Source: Pontederia crassipes (lineage: Eukaryota; Streptophyta; Magnoliopsida; Commelinales; Pontederiaceae). From it: 64,000 nucleotides of DNA. The stretch's first letter is position 1, and every line of letters starts with the position of its first letter. The translations under genes and the position numbers were made by a program. The stretch spans positions 27,923,001 through 27,987,000 of the forward strand of contig CM060189.1 of the NCBI GenBank assembly GCA_030549335.1. Direction: 5' to 3'. Under the pieces are notes generated by a model, which searched no databases, had not been told where the DNA came from, and saw only the letters and a program-made list of their open reading frames with translations. This document shows, in pieces, positions 1,795-64,000 of this stretch.

Positions 1795-4700
1795 ATGGAA
1801 TTACCATACATCAACGTCATTATAGCTGCTCTTCATGTCGGTCGAAGCAGCTCCTGGAAGGATTTAAAGCTCCACTTGCAAAAACTGGATTCTGCTTCAT
1901 TTGCATGCTATCCTCCAGATTCTTTTTCATTTGGATTGTCTCAGCGTTATTATTTGACTGTGAGCACCTAATTCCTTCAGAAAAAAAAGAAACTTTTCTG
2001 GGAAATAAAAGAACATTCTTTTTTCTTTCTACAGAAGCACCTTCTTGTTGCTGAAAAGATTTTTTTTGGGGGGGTTGTTAGTGCTTGCATTTGATATGAT
2101 AAACTTCCAGGACAGAGATTTTAATATGAACTGTAATAGATCGAATCTGATTTTTCTTTCCTCCTTTTTCTCCTCTAGAATTGGATTCGATTCCTTATGA
2201 AACTTGTGCTTATTCTGACTGTTGGTGCTCTCTCAAATGGTTTCTGGCTGGCTTGTCTGATCTTTGCTTGTGGAAGGAATTTGTTGCGACGTCAAGATAT
2301 GGCGACGTTTCAGAATAACATACTTCAGGTCCATTCCATCCTAATTTCGTATTAAAGCATTCGATTTTTATGGATTCTTGTTATTAATAACTCAAAAGAT
2401 TAGATTCCTCCATCTCATTATTCCCGATAAAAAGGAAAAAAGAAAAAGATATTTACATTCTCTATGATGAATCCTCCTGTTGCTGATTTCAATTAATATT
2501 TGGCGGTTCAGCGAGGCATCACACAGGGAGGAGAGAAGATTGTGAGGTCCTGATAAAGCTGTGGAGAGCAAACAGAATGGAGAGTCTTCCTGATGTCTAT
2601 CCACTGACAGGATTACAAATCGGGTGAGTGTCTAACCTTTGTGGACCTTTTTAGGCATCATTATGAATTTGTCCAAGTTCCTTTTGGGTTAAGGATCATG
2701 CACAGTGTTATGGATTTCATGCTTAAGTCAAGTTAACTATTTTAAAATGTTTTTGTGTATCCTCCTTGAAGTCCATGGGGCACTCATTTCTCCAAAGATT
2801 GCAGATTATTGATCCTAAAGCCAAAGGTTCATTAAGAAGTTTATAAAGCTAAATAGTGAATTCACTTATTTCACCGGGAACCCCAAAAGTAGGGAATGCT
2901 GATTTTTCAACGTGTGTAGGTTGATTTTTTCAGCTTCTTATCTTAACTTGGGAACTATATATTTTTATCTTCAAAGTGGAAAAAGACACTAGATACTTAT
3001 GGGATGTTTAAGATTTTTTGTCCTTGTCATTATCATGTATATAAGATTTGAAAGTTTCCAAATGCCATACGTTGCCTAAAAGTAGTAGGATGATCTATCA
3101 GTAATTTTGGTTTATTTCTATAATGCATTAGGTAGTTAGTATTTTTATCAGTTCATGCATTAATTTCTTTCATTGTCATAATGCATACATTTTACAACAA
3201 CAACAAAACCTTATCCCACTAGGTGGGATCGGTTACATGGATCATACGACGTCATGTTCATGAGATTCGACAGAGTTTTACGTTGGCTGTCGGGATCTAA
3301 CACAACCCTCCTCCTTTATCCGGGCTTGGGACCGGCTATGCGGAGTTGTTGTTGCACTGTACCATACCTGCAACAGCAGCCTTTCGTACTTCTTCATGGA
3401 AATAAAACTTAAGAAGTGGTACCAAAGTAGGAGCGACCTGATCAATCCATGGATACATTTGGACATACATTTTACAATTGGACAATTTGGCAGTACTAAA
3501 CTCACAAAATACACGTGTTCACCAGGGACATACAAGCCTATGTTTCTCAAGCTTTCTTGTATTTTGCTCCCTTAAGCAAAAGGATTTTCATTCTTGTCGA
3601 CAACGGGCCATGGTTGGTGAACAAGCTCTCGAAATCTGCAAGGTTATGGCAACTGGTGGTCACAAAGGTCTTAGTCAATTCATCTTTTATTTTTTTTCTT
3701 TTTCAAAGAAAAAGCTTTCTTTTGGTTCTGGAAATCTTTTTCTTCTTCTTGTACAAATGTATTATTAGACTAACTCTCTCATGACTTGCAGTACAGGATA
3801 TCTCCATTTATGAATAGCAAAGCAATTCCCGAGCCAACTACGCCAGAACGCCACGAAGCCAACCATGACAAGTCCAAGAAGTCCAGCAGATGGTTTCCAT
3901 CAATGGTTTCTATGAAACTGAAACATAAGTACCTCCGTGCAGTGTTGGACTTGAGCAGATCACTCCATGGATTCATAGTGTTTGAAGTGACATGGAAAGA
4001 TGTGCATGGTATCAACTATCTAAATGAGCTTCAGGTCTAAAACATGCATCATAGCTATTTCTGCAGGATTATTTTCTTAGATCATTTGGCCTTAAGAATA
4101 CTTGAACATTGAATTCAGATTGACACATCTCTAGCTCTGGAAGTGAGATCCATGAAGAAGTGGGAATTTTTCAGCCCTGACCAGGCGTCCAATTGCATGT
4201 CATTGTGGTTTTCAGGCCGTATATCAGAAACCCAGTCTCTCAAGAACTATCTCAAGAAGCTATGTGAAATAGATATTCAAAATTTCAATGCCCGCACCCT
4301 GTCGAAGGAGTTGTCTCTTCCGAAAGCACATCCTCTAAACGCCCTCCCTGAGGAGGAAGAAATGTTAGATGCACAAGAAACTCCATTCACCATGACAGAT
4401 GATAAAACCTGTAGCATGTTATCATCCCAGGAAAGCGAATGTCCTGCATTAGGCTCATCCCAGGAAACTAGACTGTTGAAGAGCAAACAGGTGCAGGAGG
4501 CTTTTATCACACCAAGTAATATGCAGACACATTGATATTATTTAAAATCAATGATAGTTTACTTCCATCGAAGCTACAACAGATCATTATGTCTGATATT
4601 AGGCTTCTAACATTGCTTGAGTCAGGACTTCCTTCTTGGGTCATATTCTTCCAATCTTATCCTCTCTTTTGCCACTTTTATCGCCCATGGATGCGGCCTT

Positions 4701-13440: not shown

Positions 13441-13649
13441 TAGAAAACAAATAGTTTGTTACTTAGACTTAAATATACATATAGTGTGTTAGTTCGATTT
13501 ATTACTTTTCATATTCTTATGTTATATATTATGCCTATAATGTTTTTATATTACATGTGATGCTTTTATATTGCTTGTGTGAATATCAATGCATTTTGAG
13601 ATGCATTATAAATTGTATGGTGTGTGAAGGGGAAAAAATGAGTCACTCA

Positions 13650-13667
13650 AGGGTGGCAACTAAACAC

Positions 13668-13701
<34 letters not shown>

Positions 13702-13810
13702 CCTTACGGCACGAGCTGACGACAGCCATGCACCACCTGTGTCCGCGTTCCCGAAGGCACCCCTCTCTTTCAAGAGGATTCACGGCATGTCAAGCCGGTT
13801 CTTCGCTTTG

Positions 13811-21831: not shown

Positions 21832-24800
21832 GAGCAACTGGCTTTCTGCGGTTAAAATTTTGCTCAGCCAATGATGTATGTATCCTGGACTGCAATTGGT
21901 TTCTACCTTTTTTTTGCAGAATCGTATGTACTTGAAGTAGTTTGTGATATCCTCTACATGTATTACAGGGTTCAAGGCAGACTAATCTTTTACATCGGAC
22001 AAGCTGTTTTCGAAGGAGGTATCAAGTCGCTCGAAGCAGCTTGGATTATCTATGTCATTCTAGATTGTCAGTACAGAGGACTAGCATGTCACGGTTCCTG
22101 TACTCTTCAGAGGCAAGAGCTGTGGTTTCAAGAGATCTACACGCGTCAGTGACCGAGGAATCTGATGCTTTGATATCTTCCCCTGAGATCATACACTTCT
22201 ACCGACGCCCATTGATTCAAGAAAGTGCAACCACTGAACTTCTCAAGCAGGTCCAAGCAAAGATTTCCAATCATATTGTTGATATAAAAACTGAGCAGTG
22301 TTTCAATATTGGGCTGAATGGGATGTTGTCAAATGATAAGCTTGGTGTACTCAAGTGGCTTCTTCAAGAGACATATGAACCTGAAAATTTGCAGACAGAG
22401 AGCTTTCTGGAGGAGGAGGCCTCCAAGGACATTCATTCTGTTGTTGTTGAGGTTGGTCCGCGCATGTCCTTCACGACAGCATGGTCAGCTAATGTTGTAT
22501 CAATATGTCAAGCTTGCTCTTTGACAGAAGTGACTCGCATGGAGAGGTCAAGAAGATATCTTCTGTCCCTTAAGCCAGGTAGCAAATCCTTAGACGCGAA
22601 CCAAATAAATGATTTTGCAGCTATGGTTCATGATAGGATGACAGAATGCATATATTCGCATAAGCTGAGGTCATTCAAGTCCAGTGTTATTCCTGACGAT
22701 GTCCATATTGTTCCGCTAATTGAGAGGGGAAGGGAAGCACTTGATGAGATCAATTTGAAAATGGGTCTTGCATTTGATGAACAAGATATCCAGTACTACA
22801 CTAAGCTTTTCAGGGATGACATTAAGAGAAATCCCACTACTGTTGAACTTTTTGACATTGCACAATCAAATAGTGAGCACAGTAGGCACTGGTTTTTCAA
22901 TGGAAAACTTACTATCGATGGGGAAACCATGAAAAACACATTGTTTCAGCTTGTGAAGAGCACTTTGAAGGCAAACCCAAACAATTCTGTTATTGGCTTC
23001 AAAGACAACTCAAGTGCAATCAAGGGATTTGGTGCTAATCAACTTCGCCCTACATCTCCTGGTTCCACATCTCCACTCATCGAGTTCAAGCGTGAGCTTG
23101 ACATCTTGTTGACTGCAGAGACACATAATTTCCCATGTGCTGTGGCTCCCTACCCTGGCGCAGAAACTGGTGCCGGAGGCCGAATAAGGGACACACATGC
23201 AACTGGAAGCGGTTCATTTGTTGTTGCTTCCACAGCGGGATATTGTGTTGGTAATCTTAACATAGAAGGGGCAATAGCTCCATGGGAGGATCAATCATTT
23301 GTGTATCCATCAAACTTGGCTTCTCCTTTGCAGATTTTAATTGATGCTAGTGATGGTGCATCTGATTATGGCAACAAATTTGGAGAGCCTCTTATACAAG
23401 GGTATACAAGGACCTTCGGAATGAGACTTCCAAATGATGAGCGGCGGGAGTGGTTGAAACCTATTATGTTCAGTGGAGGGATTGGTCAAATTGACCATGC
23501 CCACATATCCAAGGGAGAACCAGAGGTAGGAATGCTTGTTGTGAAGATTGGAGGTCCAGCATATCGAATTGGCATGGGAGGTGGTGCGGCTTCAAGTATG
23601 GTCAGTGGCCAGAATGATGCTGAATTAGATTTTAATGCTGTACAACGAGGAGATGCTGAGATGGCACAAAAGCTGTATCGTGTAGTTCGTGCTTGTATCG
23701 AGATGGGAGAGAACAATCCTATTATTAGCATCCACGACCAGGGAGCTGGGGGAAACTGTAATGTTGTGAAAGAAATTATCTACCCTCAAGGAGCTGAAAT
23801 TGATATAAGATCTATAGTTGTCGGTGACCATACTATGTCAGTTTTAGAGATATGGGGTGCAGAATACCAAGAACAGGATGCACTGTTGGTAAAACCTGAG
23901 AACCGGAACTTGTTGCAAGCAATATGTGACCGAGAAAGGGTCTCCATGGCAGTTATTGGCACCATCAATGGTAGTGGCCGAATTGTGTTGATAGATAGCG
24001 CAGCTGTTGAGCTCTCTCGATTAAATGAACAACTTCTCCCTCCTCCTGTGGAGGATCTTGAGCTTGAAAAAGTGCTTGGAGACATGCCACAGAAATCCTT
24101 TGAATTTAAGAGGGTTCCTTCTATTCTGGAGCCACTTGACATGGAACCCAACCAAACATTGATGGACATATTGAAGAGGGTTTTGAAACTCCCTTCGGTT
24201 TGTTCGAAACGCTTCTTAACAACAAAGGTTGACAGGTGTGTCACAGGTCTTGTGGCACAACAACAGACCGTGGGTCCCCTTCAGCTACCAGTTTCTGATG
24301 TCGCTGTTATTGCACAGACATATACAGATCTGACAGGTGGTGCCTGTGCCATTGGGGAGCAGCCAATAAAAGGTTTACTAAACCCAGTAGCTATGGCGAG
24401 ATTAGCTGTTGGAGAAGCATTAACAAATTTAGTCTGGGCTAAAGTTACTTCTCTCGGTGATGTTAAAGCCAGTGGTAACTGGATGTATGCCGCCAAGCTT
24501 GAAGGAGAAGGAGCTGCCATGTATGATGCTGCCAATGCTCTTGCAGAGTCCATGATTGAACTAGGAATAGCTATAGATGGGGGAAAAGACAGCCTCTCTA
24601 TGGCTGCACATGCAGCTGAAGAAGTTGTTAAGGCACCAGGAAATCTCGTCATAAGTGCCTATGTGACATGTCCTGACATAACCTTGACAGTGACTCCTGA
24701 CCTAAAGCTAGGAAATGATGGTGTTCTCCTGCACATCGATCTAGCAAAGGGGAAACGCCGTTTAGGTGGTTCTGCTCTTGCCCAGGCGTATGACCAAATT

Positions 24801-26165
24801 GGTGATGAATGCCCTGATCTTGATGACGTTGGTTACCTGAAAAAAGTCTTTGAGACTGTTCAGGAACTTCTTGGTCAAAGGCTAATTTCTGCTGGTCATG
24901 ACATAAGTGATGGTGGAATTATTGTTTGTGTTCTAGAGATGGCATTTGCTGGGAACTGTGGTGTGCAGTTGAATTTAAAATCCAGGGGCCAGAATCCTCT
25001 CCAAGTACTCTTTGCTGAAGAGCTTGGTCTTGTCCTTGAGGTCAGCTCACAAAATGTTGATACAGTCAATCAAATACTTGAAGCAGCTGGCATTTCTGGT
25101 GAGGTAATTGGAAATGTTTCTGCATCTCCATGTATAGAGCTATCAGTTGATGGCATAAGACAACTACAGGAGGAAACTTCTTATCTTCGAGATTTATGGG
25201 AGGAAACCAGCTTTGAGCTAGAGCGGTTCCAGAGGCTGGCTTCTTGTGTTACTCTTGAGAAAGAAGGTTTGAAGAACAGACATGCCCCCTCATGGAAATT
25301 AAGTTTTAGTCCCAAGCTCACTGATGAAAAATTTATCACTGCTACCCTGAAACCTAAGGTTGCTATCATTCGTGAGGAAGGTAGTAATGGTGACAGAGAA
25401 ATGTCTGCTGCATTTTATGCTGCGGGATTTGAGCCGTGGGACATTACAATGTCTGACCTTCTTAGTGGACAAGTCTCATTAGATGTGTTTCGAGGCATTG
25501 CATTTGTTGGTGGCTTTAGCTATGCTGATGTATTAGATTCAGCGAAAGGTTGGTCGGCATCTATAAGGTTTAATAAGCCTCTTCTTCAACAATTTCAAGA
25601 ATTCTACAATAGGCCAGATACTTTTAGCCTTGGTGTTTGCAATGGGTGTCAGCTCATGGCTCTTCTTGGATGGGTGCCTGGAGCCAGCATTGGGGGGTCC
25701 TTGGGTGTTGGTGGAGATGTGTCACAACCTAGGTTCATTCACAACGGGTCTGGTCGATTTGAATGCCGTTTCACAAGTGTGAGAGTTGGAGAATCTCCGG
25801 CTATTATGTTCAAAGGAATGGAGGGCAGTACATTGGGAGTTTGGGCTGCTCATGGTGAGGGTAGAGCATATTTCCCTGACAATGCCATATTAGACAGTGT
25901 TCTTAATAGTAGCTTGGCCCCTATTCGCTATTGCAACGATGATGGTGATGTTACGGAGGCTTATCCTTTCAATCCAAATGGATCTCCAATGGGGATCGCA
26001 GCACTTTGTTCCCCCGATGGAAGACATCTTGCAATGATGCCACATCCAGAACGTTGCTTCATGATGTGGCAATTCCCATGGTATCCGACGGATTGGGAAG
26101 TGGAAGAGGGAGGTCCAAGCCCATGGTTGCGAATGTTTCAGAATGCCCGCGAGTGGTGCTCATAG
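21819..26165 (+). CDS. PUR4: Phosphoribosylformylglycinamidine synthase, organellar
   Basis: FGAM synthase (EC 6.3.5.3) converts FGAR, ATP and glutamine to FGAM in de novo purine synthesis; the plant enzyme is in plastids and mitochondria. Coding exons are 21819-21875 (MASLGATGFL...) and 21969-26165, joined in phase 0 across a 93-base intron, giving 1417 residues; the Arabidopsis protein is about 1,400. The exon 2 start GSRQTNLLHR aligns with the Arabidopsis leader from memory, favouring acceptor 21968 over the stronger-looking 21919, which gives a stop. Residues 1 to about 65 are Ser/Arg-rich transit peptide. Then follow the N-terminal domain, two synthase halves (NSEHSRHWFF; TAETHNFPCAV; GGAASSMVSGQND; KASGNWMYAA; SAGHDISDGG) and a C-terminal glutamine amidotransferase with nucleophile Cys1243 in GVCNGCQ and His1378/Glu1380 in PHPER. 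All key motifs look intact. The enzyme body is one exon. Confidence 0.97.
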
Positions 26166-33759: not shown

Positions 33760-36700
33760 TTAAGTAATTGCTCCGTTGGGGTCATCATACAAAATATGGA
33801 ACAGACCCGGAAGGAGACTGTCTAACAAAAAATTATCGCTACAACAAGTGCGACCAAAAGAGACGAGAAAGTCAGCGGCCAGATTTTTGTTCCTTGAGCA
33901 ATGCTTGACAATCACAGGCTGCAGAGCCTCAAGCAGGCTCCAAATATCATGAATGGTTCCTTTTATGTTCCAGGAGTACTTCTCCTGACGCGTAACAATC
34001 TTGATCAAAGTTAGAGAGTCCGAGTAGACCAGAATACGAGTCAAGGATCTATAGGCGCATTTTCTAAGGTCAGCCAGCATGTCACGCGCTTCAATCTCCA
34101 GAATAGTCTTGGCAAAAGTGCTTGAAGCCCCTGCAAAAAGAAGAGAACCAATGTGAGTTCGTAAAATTGAGCCAAAGCCCTCCAATCCTCCCCCCACAGG
34201 GAGGGAGCCATCTGATTGAAGAAGTAGCCAAGAATGGATGGGGGGGGGGGGGAGGGGGGCCTCCCACCGGGCCCGGAGAGGGCCTTGGGGGTTAAAGTGT
34301 GGTGCCTCAGGGGCGTGGGAATCAACATGGTCAGCATAGTCATGGAACCCCGCCAATGCTCTCTCCCATACTACCTTCACGATTGTGTGCTTGGACTTAA
34401 AATAGGCAGCGTTCCTAGAATTCCAGAGCTCCCAGAGGCAGTAGGAGAAAAGGGACTGAACAACATGGCGAGACTGCGCGCACAAGCCCGCACTCTCATT
34501 AACCCATGAGCCAGTATGCCAAGAATCGGTAAAAAGGAAGGGGATATTGAGCTGCTGCTGAAAAAGTTGCCAAAGTTGTATAGCAAATGAGCATTGAAAA
34601 AACAAATGGGTATTAGTTTCAAGAGTGAGCCCGTAGAACGAGCAGCAGGGGTTAATCGAACTATCAAAACGAAGGACAGTGTCCAGGGTAGGTAGCTTGT
34701 TCTGAAGGAGTTTCCATAGGAAGATATGAATTTTGGGAGCGATTGGAATTTTCAAATCCGAGACCAAGCACGCCCTCCACTGGAGGTGGTCGGCAGAGCA
34801 ACAGCGAACAAAGCTATAGACCGACTTTACATTTGCTAATCCATGGGTATCATTCACCCAGACCCACGCATCATCATAGGCAATGGCTGGAATGCATATT
34901 CTTTTAATTATTACGCCAAGATCCGGCCCAAATATGGTGGAGAGTAAGTTATCGTTCCAGTTTCCATTATCAATCAGATCGCTTACAAGAAGGTTATCGA
35001 GGGAAAGGAAGGTGTTTATGTACATGAGCCATTTACAAAATGGGGTAGGGCTGACCCAAGGATCGTAGAGAAGAGATGTTTTGACCCCCGAGCCAATCTA
35101 TTTCTGGAAGCCAAGGCGAAGGTCCAAGATGGAATGCGTAATCGTTCTCCAGATGGGTGAAGCTCTAGGATTGTGAGAGGGTAAATTCCAAAGGTTGAAA
35201 TCACCATACTTAGCATTGAATAGTTGAATCCACTACGAATTGTTTTGGTTTAACAGTGATAAGATACGCTTAGCCATTAGAGATAATTGCACAGCGTGAA
35301 GATTCTTGATTCCAAGGCCCCCTCAAATTTAGGTAGCTGTGCAGTGTGCCAGTTAATAATATGAAGGCTTCGATGGTTAGGTTCAGAGTTCCAAAGATAA
35401 GATCTCGAAAGCTTCTCAAGAGACTCAATGATTCCATTTGCAAGATGGGTGGTACTAAGCCAGTGGGTAGGAATTACTGATAAAATAGATTTAATTAAAG
35501 TAGTGCGTCCAGCCTGATTTAAAATGCGACGATTCCATCCTGCGAGTCTGGCACTGGTTTTTTCAATAATCTGGCGTTGATCTTGAATTAAGAGTTTAGT
35601 AGGAGAGATAGGAGTTCCCAGATACAGAAAGGGAAACTGCCCCAACTGGAAGCTAAGGGTGTCGCGGAGCATGTTCCTACGTCTAGTATTTAATTTTGGA
35701 AGGTACAGATTGGATTTATGAGTGTTGACTTTCTGTCCAGTAAGATATTTGTAAACTTCAAGAATTTCCTTAATATTTTTACAGTTTTTCTTTGTAGCTT
35801 TTAAGCATATTAATACATCATCAACGAATAGCAGATGCGAAAGAGTAAAATTCTGAATGTTGAAAGGAATGATTTTGCCAATAGCCTCATAAGAGGTCAT
35901 GAGGGAGGAGAACACTTGACTGATGAGGATGAAAATGTACGGAGAGATTGGATCCCCCTGGCGAATACCGCAATTGGAGGAAAAGATCTCAGAGCATTGT
36001 CCATTCACAATACACATAAAAGCAGGGGATCTAATGCACGTGCTAATCCAATTCCTAAAAGTAGGAGGGAAATTCATTAGAGTTAGGACAGTATCGACAG
36101 CCTCCCAGGAGACTCGATCAAAAGCCTTCTTCATGTCAACCTTCATAAGCATAAATTTTTGTCTACCAGAGTTGAGAGTGAGCAAGTTCTTGTGCGATGA
36201 TAATATTATCATGAATAAGCCTACCAAGGACAAAAGCCGATTGATTGTGGTCGATAAGGTGTTCTAGGGTTGGGCGCAAGAGATTAGCAAGGATTTTGGT
36301 TAGAAGACGGTATAGGACATTGCATAAGGAGATAGGCCGGTAATCTCCAACAGTCTTAGGATTTTTCTTCTTAGGAATAAAAATTAACGAGGTAAGAGAC
36401 CATTCTGTGGGAAAAGAGTTATAGATTAGGAAGGAATTGATGGTTTCGATAATCTTAGGTCCTAGAATATTCTAGTACTCCCTATAGAATTCAACAGTAA
36501 AGCCATCGGGACCGGGCGATTTGCCCGGGGGCATACTCCAAAGGGCATCCCGGATCTCCAAGTCGGAGACAACTTTAGTGAACTGGTCGTAGTAAGCATT
36601 GTCAAGTGTAGGTAGTGTTGGCCAACAAGAGAGAGGGATGGGGAGTGATGCCTCAGGCTATCACAAGTGTTTATAATGATTTACAAATAAGGATCGAATG

Positions 36701-62075: not shown

Positions 62076-64000
62076 ATGGCTTCTCTAGGAGCAACTGACT
62101 TTCTGCGGTTAAGATTTTGCTCAGCCAATAATGTATGTATCCTGGACTGCAATTGGTTTCTTCCTTTTTTTTTGCAGAATCACATGTACTTCAAATAGTT
62201 TGTGATATCCTCTAGATGTATTACAGGGTTCAAAGCAGGCTAATCTTTTACATCGCCCAAGTTGTTTTCGAAGGAGGTATCAAATGGCTCCAGGCAGCTT
62301 GGATTATCTATGTCATTCTAGATTGTCAGTACAGAGGACTAGCATGTCAAGATTCCTGTGCTCTTCAGAGGCAAGATCTGTGGTTTCAAGAGATCTACAG
62401 GCTTCGGTGACTAAGGAATCTGATGCTTTAATATCTTCCCCTGAGATCATACACTTCTACCGACGCCCATTGATTCAAGAAAGTGCAACTGCGGAACTTC
62501 TCAAGCAGGTCCAAGCAAAGGTTTCCAATCATATTGTTGATATAAAAACTGAGCAGTGTTTCAATATTGGCTTGAATGGGATGTTGTCAAATGATAAGCT
62601 TGGTGTACTCAAGTGGCTTCTTCAAGAGACATATGAGCCTGATAATTTGCAGACAGAGAGCTTTCTGGAAGAGGAGGCTTCCAAGGACATTCATTCTGTT
62701 GTTGTTGAAGTTGGTCCGCGCATGTCCTTCACAACAGCATGGTCAGCTAATGTTGTATCAATATGTCAAGCTTGCTCTTTGACAGAAGTGACTCGCATGG
62801 AGAGGTCAAGAAGATATCTTCTGTCCCTTAAGCCAGGTAGCAAATCCTTAGACGTGAACCAAATAAATGATTTTGCAGCTATGGTTCATGATAGGATGAC
62901 AGAATGCATATATTCGCATAAGCTGAGGTCATTCAAGTCCAGTGTTATTCCTGATGATGTCCATATTGTTCCGCTAATTGAGAGGGGAAGGGAAGCACTT
63001 GATGAGATCAATTTGAAAATGGGTCTTGCATTTGATGAACAAGATATCCAGTACTACACTAAGCTTTTCAGGGATGACATTAAGAGAAATCCCACTACTG
63101 TTGAACTTTTTGACATTGCACAATCAAATAGTGAGCACAGTAGGCACTGGTTTTTCAATGGAAAACTTATTATCGATGGGGAAACCATGAAAAACACATT
63201 GTTTCAGCTTGTGAAAAGCACTTTGAAGGCAAACCCAAACAATTCTGTTATTGGCTTTAAAGATAACTCAAGTGCAATCAAGGGATATGTTGCTAATCAA
63301 CTTCGCCCTACATCTCCTGGTTCCACATCTCCACTCGTCGAGTTCAAGCGTGAGCTTGACATCTTGTTGACTGCAGAGACACATAATTTCCCTTGTGCTG
63401 TGGCTCCCTACCCTGGCGCAGAAACCGGTGCCGGAGGCCGAATAAGGGACACACATGCAACTGGAAGCGGTTCATTTGTTGTTGCTTCCACAGCGGGATA
63501 TTGTGTTGGTAATCTTAACATAGAAGGGGCAATAGCTCCATGGGAGGATCAATCATTTGTGTACCCATCAAACTTGGCTTCTCCTTTGCAGATTTTAATT
63601 GATGCTAGTGATGGTGCATCTGATTATGGCAACAAATTTGGAGAACCTCTTATACAAGGCTATACAAGGACCTTCGGAATGAGACTTCCAAATGGTGAGC
63701 GGCGGGAGTGGTTGAAACCTATTATGTTCAGTGGAGGGATTGGTCAAATTGACCATGCCCACATATCCAAGGGAGAACCAGAGGTAGGAATGCTTGTTGT
63801 GAAGATTGGAGGTCCAGCATATCGAATTGGCATGGGAGGTGGTGCGGCTTCAAGTATGGTCAGTGGCCAGAATGATGCTGAATTAGATTTTAATGCTGTA
63901 CAACGAGGAGATGCTGAGATGGCACAAAAGCTGTATCGTGTTGTTCGTGCTTGTATCGAGATGGGAGAGAACAATCCTATTATTAGCATCCACGACCAGG
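62076..64000 (+). CDS. PUR4: FGAM synthase, second copy, cut by window end
   Basis: Exons 62076-62132 and 62227 to beyond 64000 (94-base intron, phase 0), collinear with copy A at an offset of 40258 bases from about 62300 on, with no net indel. The reading is open to the last base: 19 residues plus 591 codons, up to the IISIHDQ block, covering the transit peptide, N-terminal domain and first synthase half (NSEHSRHWFF, TAETHNFPCAV and GGAASSMVSGQND are all kept). Differences from copy A are a few tens of substitutions, densest in the transit peptide (G8D, K13R, D19N in exon 1). Examples in the body are KGFGANQ to KGYVANQ and NDERR to NGERR. It appears functional as far as visible; the glutaminase half is outside the window. 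Confidence 0.93.

Follow-up and report, generated by a model that had tools for sequence, protein, structure and literature searches.

Architecture of the insertion and its empty counterpart

The window analysed here is a 64-kb stretch of DNA located on C7 of the 1.13-Gb genome of Pontederia crassipes. A large enzyme ORF, which we take to resemble FGAM synthase (PurL), occurs twice on its plus strand (22041-26165 and 62284-63999, the second cut by the window end), and the 94.6% identity of the two over 2.7 kb marks the pair as a local gene duplication. On the minus strand (33763-36233), RVT_1, RVT_3 (RNase H-like) and zf-RVT domains mark a LINE remnant, presumably L1-like, that is separate from the RTE-type family discussed below. 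A fragment on the same strand (13642-13720) matches bacterial-type 16S rRNA with E 9.3e-9 and 42 bits, short of a gathering score of 50, and is likely an organelle DNA insertion. The insert of interest joins importin-5 sequence to a retroelement tail, and its constituents are as follows.

3198..3463, minus strand (sense): whole chimeric insert, 266 bp; absent on the C8 homologue (L042), and the chimera is single in the assembly
3184..3197, no strand: target-site duplication copy on the 3' (tail) side; perfect 14-bp repeat, one copy at the C8 empty site
3464..3477, no strand: target-site duplication copy on the 5' (importin) side; perfect 14-bp repeat, one copy at the C8 empty site
3456..3463, minus strand: 8-nt filler TCCAAATG at the border of the 5' duplication and importin; differs from the source exon
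3438..3455, minus strand: 3'-terminal 18 nt of exon N (importin-5); identical to the C7 gene with intron N removed
3368..3437, minus strand: complete importin-5 exon N+1, 70 nt; 100% to L033, 99% to L034
3352..3367, minus strand: initial 16 nt of importin-5 intron N+1, unspliced; matches C7 importin-5, both assembled alleles being without an element there
3348..3351, minus strand: four extra nucleotides, CAAC, at the join; foreign to importin and to the element's usual start
3198..3347, minus strand: RTE-type short internally deleted element (SIDE), 150 nt, starting AACTCCGC and ending in TTG repeats; assigned from the family alignment, 5'-end tally and LINE ORFs
3302..3352, minus strand: type-P1 twister ribozyme match (Rfam RF03160); expected cleavage between 3348 and 3347
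3213..3229, minus strand: hairpin ATCCCACCTAGTGGGAT in the LINE 3' tail, overlapping the LINE ORF end

Read on the minus strand from 3477 to 3184, the order is thus 14-bp duplication, filler, importin exons, intron, CAAC, element and 14-bp duplication. The repeat, CATACATTTTACAA, is perfect; when the right flank was shuffled 3,000 times with dinucleotides preserved, a 14-bp match to the left flank arose once. The initial annotation had reported this duplication around an importin stretch and a tail, and had considered that the 14-mer might recur elsewhere by chance; the duplication is borne out by the single 14-mer at the C8 empty site, and within the 64-kb window the 14-mer occurs at the two copies alone. 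The importin stretch was likewise described correctly; the 8-nt filler and the 18 nt of the preceding exon had been missed. The source exon reads GAGGGTTTC before TATCCATGG, and the filler is not present there; by eye it is similar to the neighbouring target sequence, and flank-templated filler is also found in the element copies L062 and L092.

The right flank leads to a homologue on C8 at 97% identity, where the site reads ..GTCATAATG CATACATTTTACAA TTGGACAATTTGG.., with one 14-mer, no insert, and flanks of 95.6 and 97.2% identity. As the C8 site is empty and holds one 14-mer, the entire chimera was inserted as one unit, which upholds the earlier proposal that importin-5 RNA and a retroelement tail travelled together as a chimera in a single non-LTR retroposition. 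The insertion is younger than the split of C7 and C8, which may be haplotypes or homeologues. C11 and C12 carry related sequence that fails to align at the insertion site and is uninformative there. A search of the assembly with the importin half and junction (3340-3477) matched the window itself and four importin-5 loci; the chimera is therefore single-copy in the assembly, and the further copies envisaged earlier were not found by this search.

An importin-5 pre-mRNA fragment and an RTE-type element

The importin-5 loci matching the insert lie on C7 (100%), C8 (99%), C12 (91%) and C11 (90%), and the importin stretch matched three PDB sequences, all importin-5 (E 4e-5), so that the coding stretch proposed initially is genuine. 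Comparison with the C7 source gene (L033, L037 and L038; exon boundaries set by GT-AG and reading frame) gave identity at 104 of 104 bases to a half-spliced RNA (18 + 70 + 16 nt). Exons N and N+1 are separated in the gene by the 113-nt intron N, which is exactly removed in the insert, and the supposed donor GCAG/GTATGG, judged by frame continuity, is the true 5' splice site of intron N+1 (81 nt, GT-AG). Since intron N is gone and 16 nt of intron N+1 (not 14, as first counted) are kept, the importin part is a reverse-transcribed, partly spliced pre-mRNA; it arrived via RNA. Direct capture of importin DNA is ruled out by the exact excision of intron N, and a coding sequence continuing past GTATGG by the intron that the source gene has there. 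The importin-like stretch might also have belonged to the consensus of the repeat family, a possibility raised at the outset; this is ruled out, as its matches are itself and four importin loci, the importin half matches no element-family copy, and it stands upstream of 0 of the 29 other element copies first fetched. The notion of a mechanism for moving exons holds insofar as an exon with its donor site was carried, but is overstated: removal of the upstream intron took the acceptor away, and the captured exon is a poor ready-made exon because the acceptor site is missing, although the donor site is present.

In the assembled C7 and C8 alleles intron N+1 runs on GTGCAATTTCTG, and no element is present at the fusion point in either. 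The C7 importin-5 region (19 kb) contains two long sense copies of the element, the first 920 bp downstream of the junction, the second on its upstream side, and neither is present on C8. Both were examined as donors of the tail and are excluded by their own sequence differences, the downstream one by AAGCTCGG and a 3-nt deletion. Between C7 (L037 and L038) and C8 (L039 and L040), the importin-5 regions show two or more long element insertions that are not shared, and insertion differences between these paired chromosomes are common in the region.

The tail had been called Au-SINE-like. Judged from its sequence, it is instead a short, internally deleted copy of an RTE-type LINE, with a 3' part corresponding to the RTE-type LINE end and a 5' part corresponding to a twister-bearing LINE leader. 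Au-like SINEs are described as ending in poly(T) or short T stretches and plant RTE LINEs in (TTG)n or (TTGATG)n (PMC3747384). The insert ends in TTG repeats and not in an Au-type short T tract, and this tail together with the twister/LINE leader rules out an Au SINE. No tRNA was detected in the window by ARAGORN, the 5' region of the element being the twister/LINE leader.

A LINE ORF with RVT_1 (E 8.8e-22, copy within L019) ends ..RRMIHVADPT* inside the shared tail, while the copies L049 and L065 start AACTCCGCC, share their leader with the window element and continue into a 503-codon open frame, which in L049 contains an Exo_endo_phos endonuclease domain (E 2.6e-8). Pieced together from these separate copies, the leader, both domains and the tail would be united in one autonomous element, and the TTG tail, the endonuclease and reverse transcriptase domains and general features of the clade point to RTE. 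The combination of a LINE 3' tail with a LINE 5' leader and an internal deletion makes the window copy a SIDE in the sense applied to R2 (PMC3414825). The internal deletion point differs among copies (alignment of L002-L031 and two L037/L038 copies), hinting at repeated independent origins or at hairpin skipping; the point between leader and tail often falls inside an inverted repeat, CATGGATC/GATCCATG.

Compared with 31 other copies, with gaps and the leader start left out, the window element departs from the majority at eight bases. All eight changes are C-to-T or G-to-A, each common to 2 to 13 of the 31 copies, and likely reflect the decay of a methylated element copy. The importin part shows 0 changes in 104 bases, and the disparity suggests either a methylated, decayed donor or methylation of the element alone after insertion. 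No donor element was found at any other place in the assembly within three mismatches over 80 nt, in an ungapped search that a donor of different internal length would escape. Among the 124 core matches in the loci retrieved, the closest show 4 differences over 124 aligned bases, gaps excluded.

The twister match and the starts of family copies

The window copy matches the type-P1 twister model with 58.2 bits (E 1.7e-10), short of the gathering score of 67.2. Matches of 51.8-66.0 bits, all below that score, were obtained in 20 of 20 loci scanned among the first 30 (L002 being the window copy itself and the L013 match a neighbouring copy), along with one additional weaker copy of 45.6 bits. Exact copies of the 27-nt twister core number 9,254 in the genome, against 0 for the reversed control. 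A metagenomic viral contig (L001:2840-2862) carries a twister-like core identical to the plant core over 23 nt; pattern scans of viral and prokaryotic collections otherwise gave nothing useful.

In the window, a P1 helix of 4 bp (3352-3349 paired with 3305-3302) is supplied by CAAC and the last intron base. Family flanks form four P1 pairs in 2 of 57 copies, as compared with 5.7% for random 4-mers; P1 is not kept in new copies because the sequence upstream of the cut is lost. According to a review, P1 is dispensable for twister cleavage (PMC6154101), and truncated twisters that retain catalytic competence have been mentioned for the 5' ends of RTE elements, as work "in preparation" (PMC7761336). 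The window copy has lost most of the optional P3 hairpin, and this P3-less form occurs exactly once genome-wide with three more at one mismatch. In the minimum-energy, pseudoknot-free fold of the insert (z -2.06; 9 of 200 shuffles equally good), the CAAC run pairs with the TTG tail and P1 is unformed.

The starting points of family copies were tallied at 70 core positions on C1, drawn from the first 100 listed. The leader was intact at 57 of these, with no more than 4 mismatches over 24 nt, and 37 of the 57 SIDE-type copies had a duplication score of at least 13; L090 was dropped, its repeat being a TTG run, leaving 36. The start lay within -2 to +4 nt of AACTCC, the predicted cleavage site, in 29 of the 36 and within -2 to +2 in 28, with L104 starting at +4. 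This clustering suggests self-cleavage by the predicted twister. Four copies (L092, L099, L100 and L112) are internally truncated, and three (L054, L066 and L062) carry extra sequence joined at the cleavage point: pieces of the element's own leader in L054 and L066, and 42 nt in L062, of which 27 copy the local flank by eye. Extra pieces at that point were also seen by eye in 5 of 29 copies of a similarity-picked sample (L003, L019, L020, L025 and L028), and in L075, a longer copy that continues into the LINE ORF. The 5' end of the element is hence a recurrent jump point, from which element RNA or the local target DNA was reached and, in one case, probably importin RNA.

The filler of L092 copies the local flank in 14 of 20 nt by eye, so that at the 5' junctions of L062 and L092 on C1 stretches of 14-27 nt repeat target DNA close by, as though reverse transcriptase or repair had copied the target before joining. 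L062 was considered as a second chimera with host RNA and rejected: its 42-nt extra is unique within three ungapped mismatches, but is mostly local flank. No host transcript was recognised in the other copies with extra pieces, the genome search having covered the extra of L062; the extras of L025 and L028 include short unassigned stretches.

Origin of the chimera and relation to known systems

Two RNAs lie inside one target duplication and the assembly contains no joined source, the pattern by which chimeric retrogenes are recognised, and 4 nt separate the importin RNA from the predicted cleavage point. The explanation we prefer, with a probability of about 0.58, is a jump of the reverse transcriptase from a ribozyme-made 5' end onto importin pre-mRNA. 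A short RTE-derived RNA would have been freed from a read-through transcript by its 5' twister and taken up by an RTE reverse transcriptase. The first strand would then have been primed at the TTG tail on a nicked target (3197/3198) and extended to the 5' end at AACTCC, where the enzyme may have slipped or added 4 nt before jumping to a nearby importin-5 pre-mRNA, 16 nt into the unspliced intron. It would have copied the beginning of the intron, a whole exon and, already spliced to it, 18 nt of the exon before; the cDNA end would finally have been attached to the target through an 8-nt filler. Such a jump is favoured since it needs no unseen importin allele and matches the behaviour of the family. 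Against it stand the capture of mRNA seen once in the family, twister scores below gathering with flanks that lack P1, and a fold that pairs CAAC with the TTG tail. Jumping enzymes moreover prefer RNA 3' ends, whereas here the landing was inside an intron.

The initial annotation had left the choice between 5' transduction and template switching to the presence or absence of the element at the source, and its absence 16 nt into intron N+1 of both assembled alleles tips that choice towards switching. Nevertheless, as no donor is found within three ungapped mismatches in the assembly, an unsampled importin-5 allele with the element 16 nt past the donor of intron N+1 must be allowed for, and we regard transduction from it as a serious though clearly less probable alternative. 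The pre-mRNA of such an allele would have been spliced upstream with intron N+1 kept, its weak, P1-less twister uncut, and copied through from the element tail. No jump would be necessary, retention of the intron would fit its enlargement by an element, and insertions in the region are indeed often missing on the other chromosome, as are the C7 sense elements from C8; the ungapped search likewise left the assembly without a donor element. Yet this course requires both an unseen allele and an uncut ribozyme, while the two assembled alleles are uninterrupted at GTGCAA/TTTCTG. The four extra nucleotides at the junction are also at odds with the narrow spread of starts in the family (-2 to +2 in 28 of 36), L104 at +4 notwithstanding, and neither C7 nor C8 has a source locus with the element at that point, the C7 element 920 bp downstream not being the donor.

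Joining at the level of RNA, in which a host ligase (e.g. plant tRNA ligase) would have linked the 5' end of the cleaved element to the 3' end left by breakage of an importin pre-mRNA before the chimera was copied, appears improbable. Twister cleavage yields a 5'-OH end, which suits ligation, and the position of the junction beside the cleavage site would be accounted for; simple ligation, on the other hand, would not be expected to leave four extra nucleotides, and the extras of the family include copies of local flank, which are no product of RNA ligation. Trans-splicing or an assembly artefact, in favour of which nothing emerged, is most improbable of all, as importin runs past its donor into the intron, so that no splice made the join, and the duplication and the empty site are clean.

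The wider result is a twister-bordered RTE/SIDE family. We put it at about even odds that twisters set the 5' ends of this very large family here and that the ribozyme-made end launches jumps which capture RNAs, partly spliced nuclear mRNA precursors among them. If true, this would be a ribozyme-positioned route by which host exon sequence is placed in new sites, and the chimera is one site-mapped event in which unspliced, nuclear-type host RNA was carried to a new plant locus. The functions of plant twisters were called unknown in a 2023 review (PMC10226581); the occurrence of the core at RTE-type 5' ends that start, in the sample, at the predicted cut suggests a job for it, namely the trimming of the element from read-through transcripts. 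On twisters in plant RTE elements, one sentence announcing work "in preparation" was found in a literature screened mostly by title (PMC7761336). Titles on SINEs and template switching offered no plant twister case, and a sequence-based literature search likewise gave none by title.

The closest parallels are the R2 elements and R2/R1 SIDEs of Drosophila, which are described as having a 5' self-cleaving ribozyme, a LINE 3' end, an internal deletion and extra RNA at the cut end; in R2, both U12 snRNA and tRNA have been reached by jumps that start where the ribozyme cuts the 5' end (PMC3414825). R2 employs an HDV-like ribozyme and an rDNA target (PMC3414825), whereas the present case involves a twister, an RTE-type LINE, dispersed plant insertions and the capture of a partly spliced mRNA precursor. 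A truncated twister at the 5' end of the RTE superfamily is common to our family and the brief statement in PMC7761336; the present analysis adds, for one plant genome, the number of copies, the point at which they start, their short deletion derivatives and a chimera with host RNA. The tobacco TS SINE shares its TTG-repeat tail with an RTE LINE but includes a region related to tRNA that contains A and B boxes (PMC3747384), in place of which a twister leader is found here, with no tRNA by ARAGORN. The enclosure of host RNA and LINE sequence within one target duplication is shared with mammalian L1-mRNA chimeras (PMC13174262) and Magnaporthe chimeric retrogenes (PMC2104539). Among the L1-mRNA chimeras, 6 of 17 are given as ending exactly at splice donors, suggesting splicing (PMC13174262), while in the present chimera the host part ends 16 nt beyond the donor and the join lies beside the predicted cleavage point.
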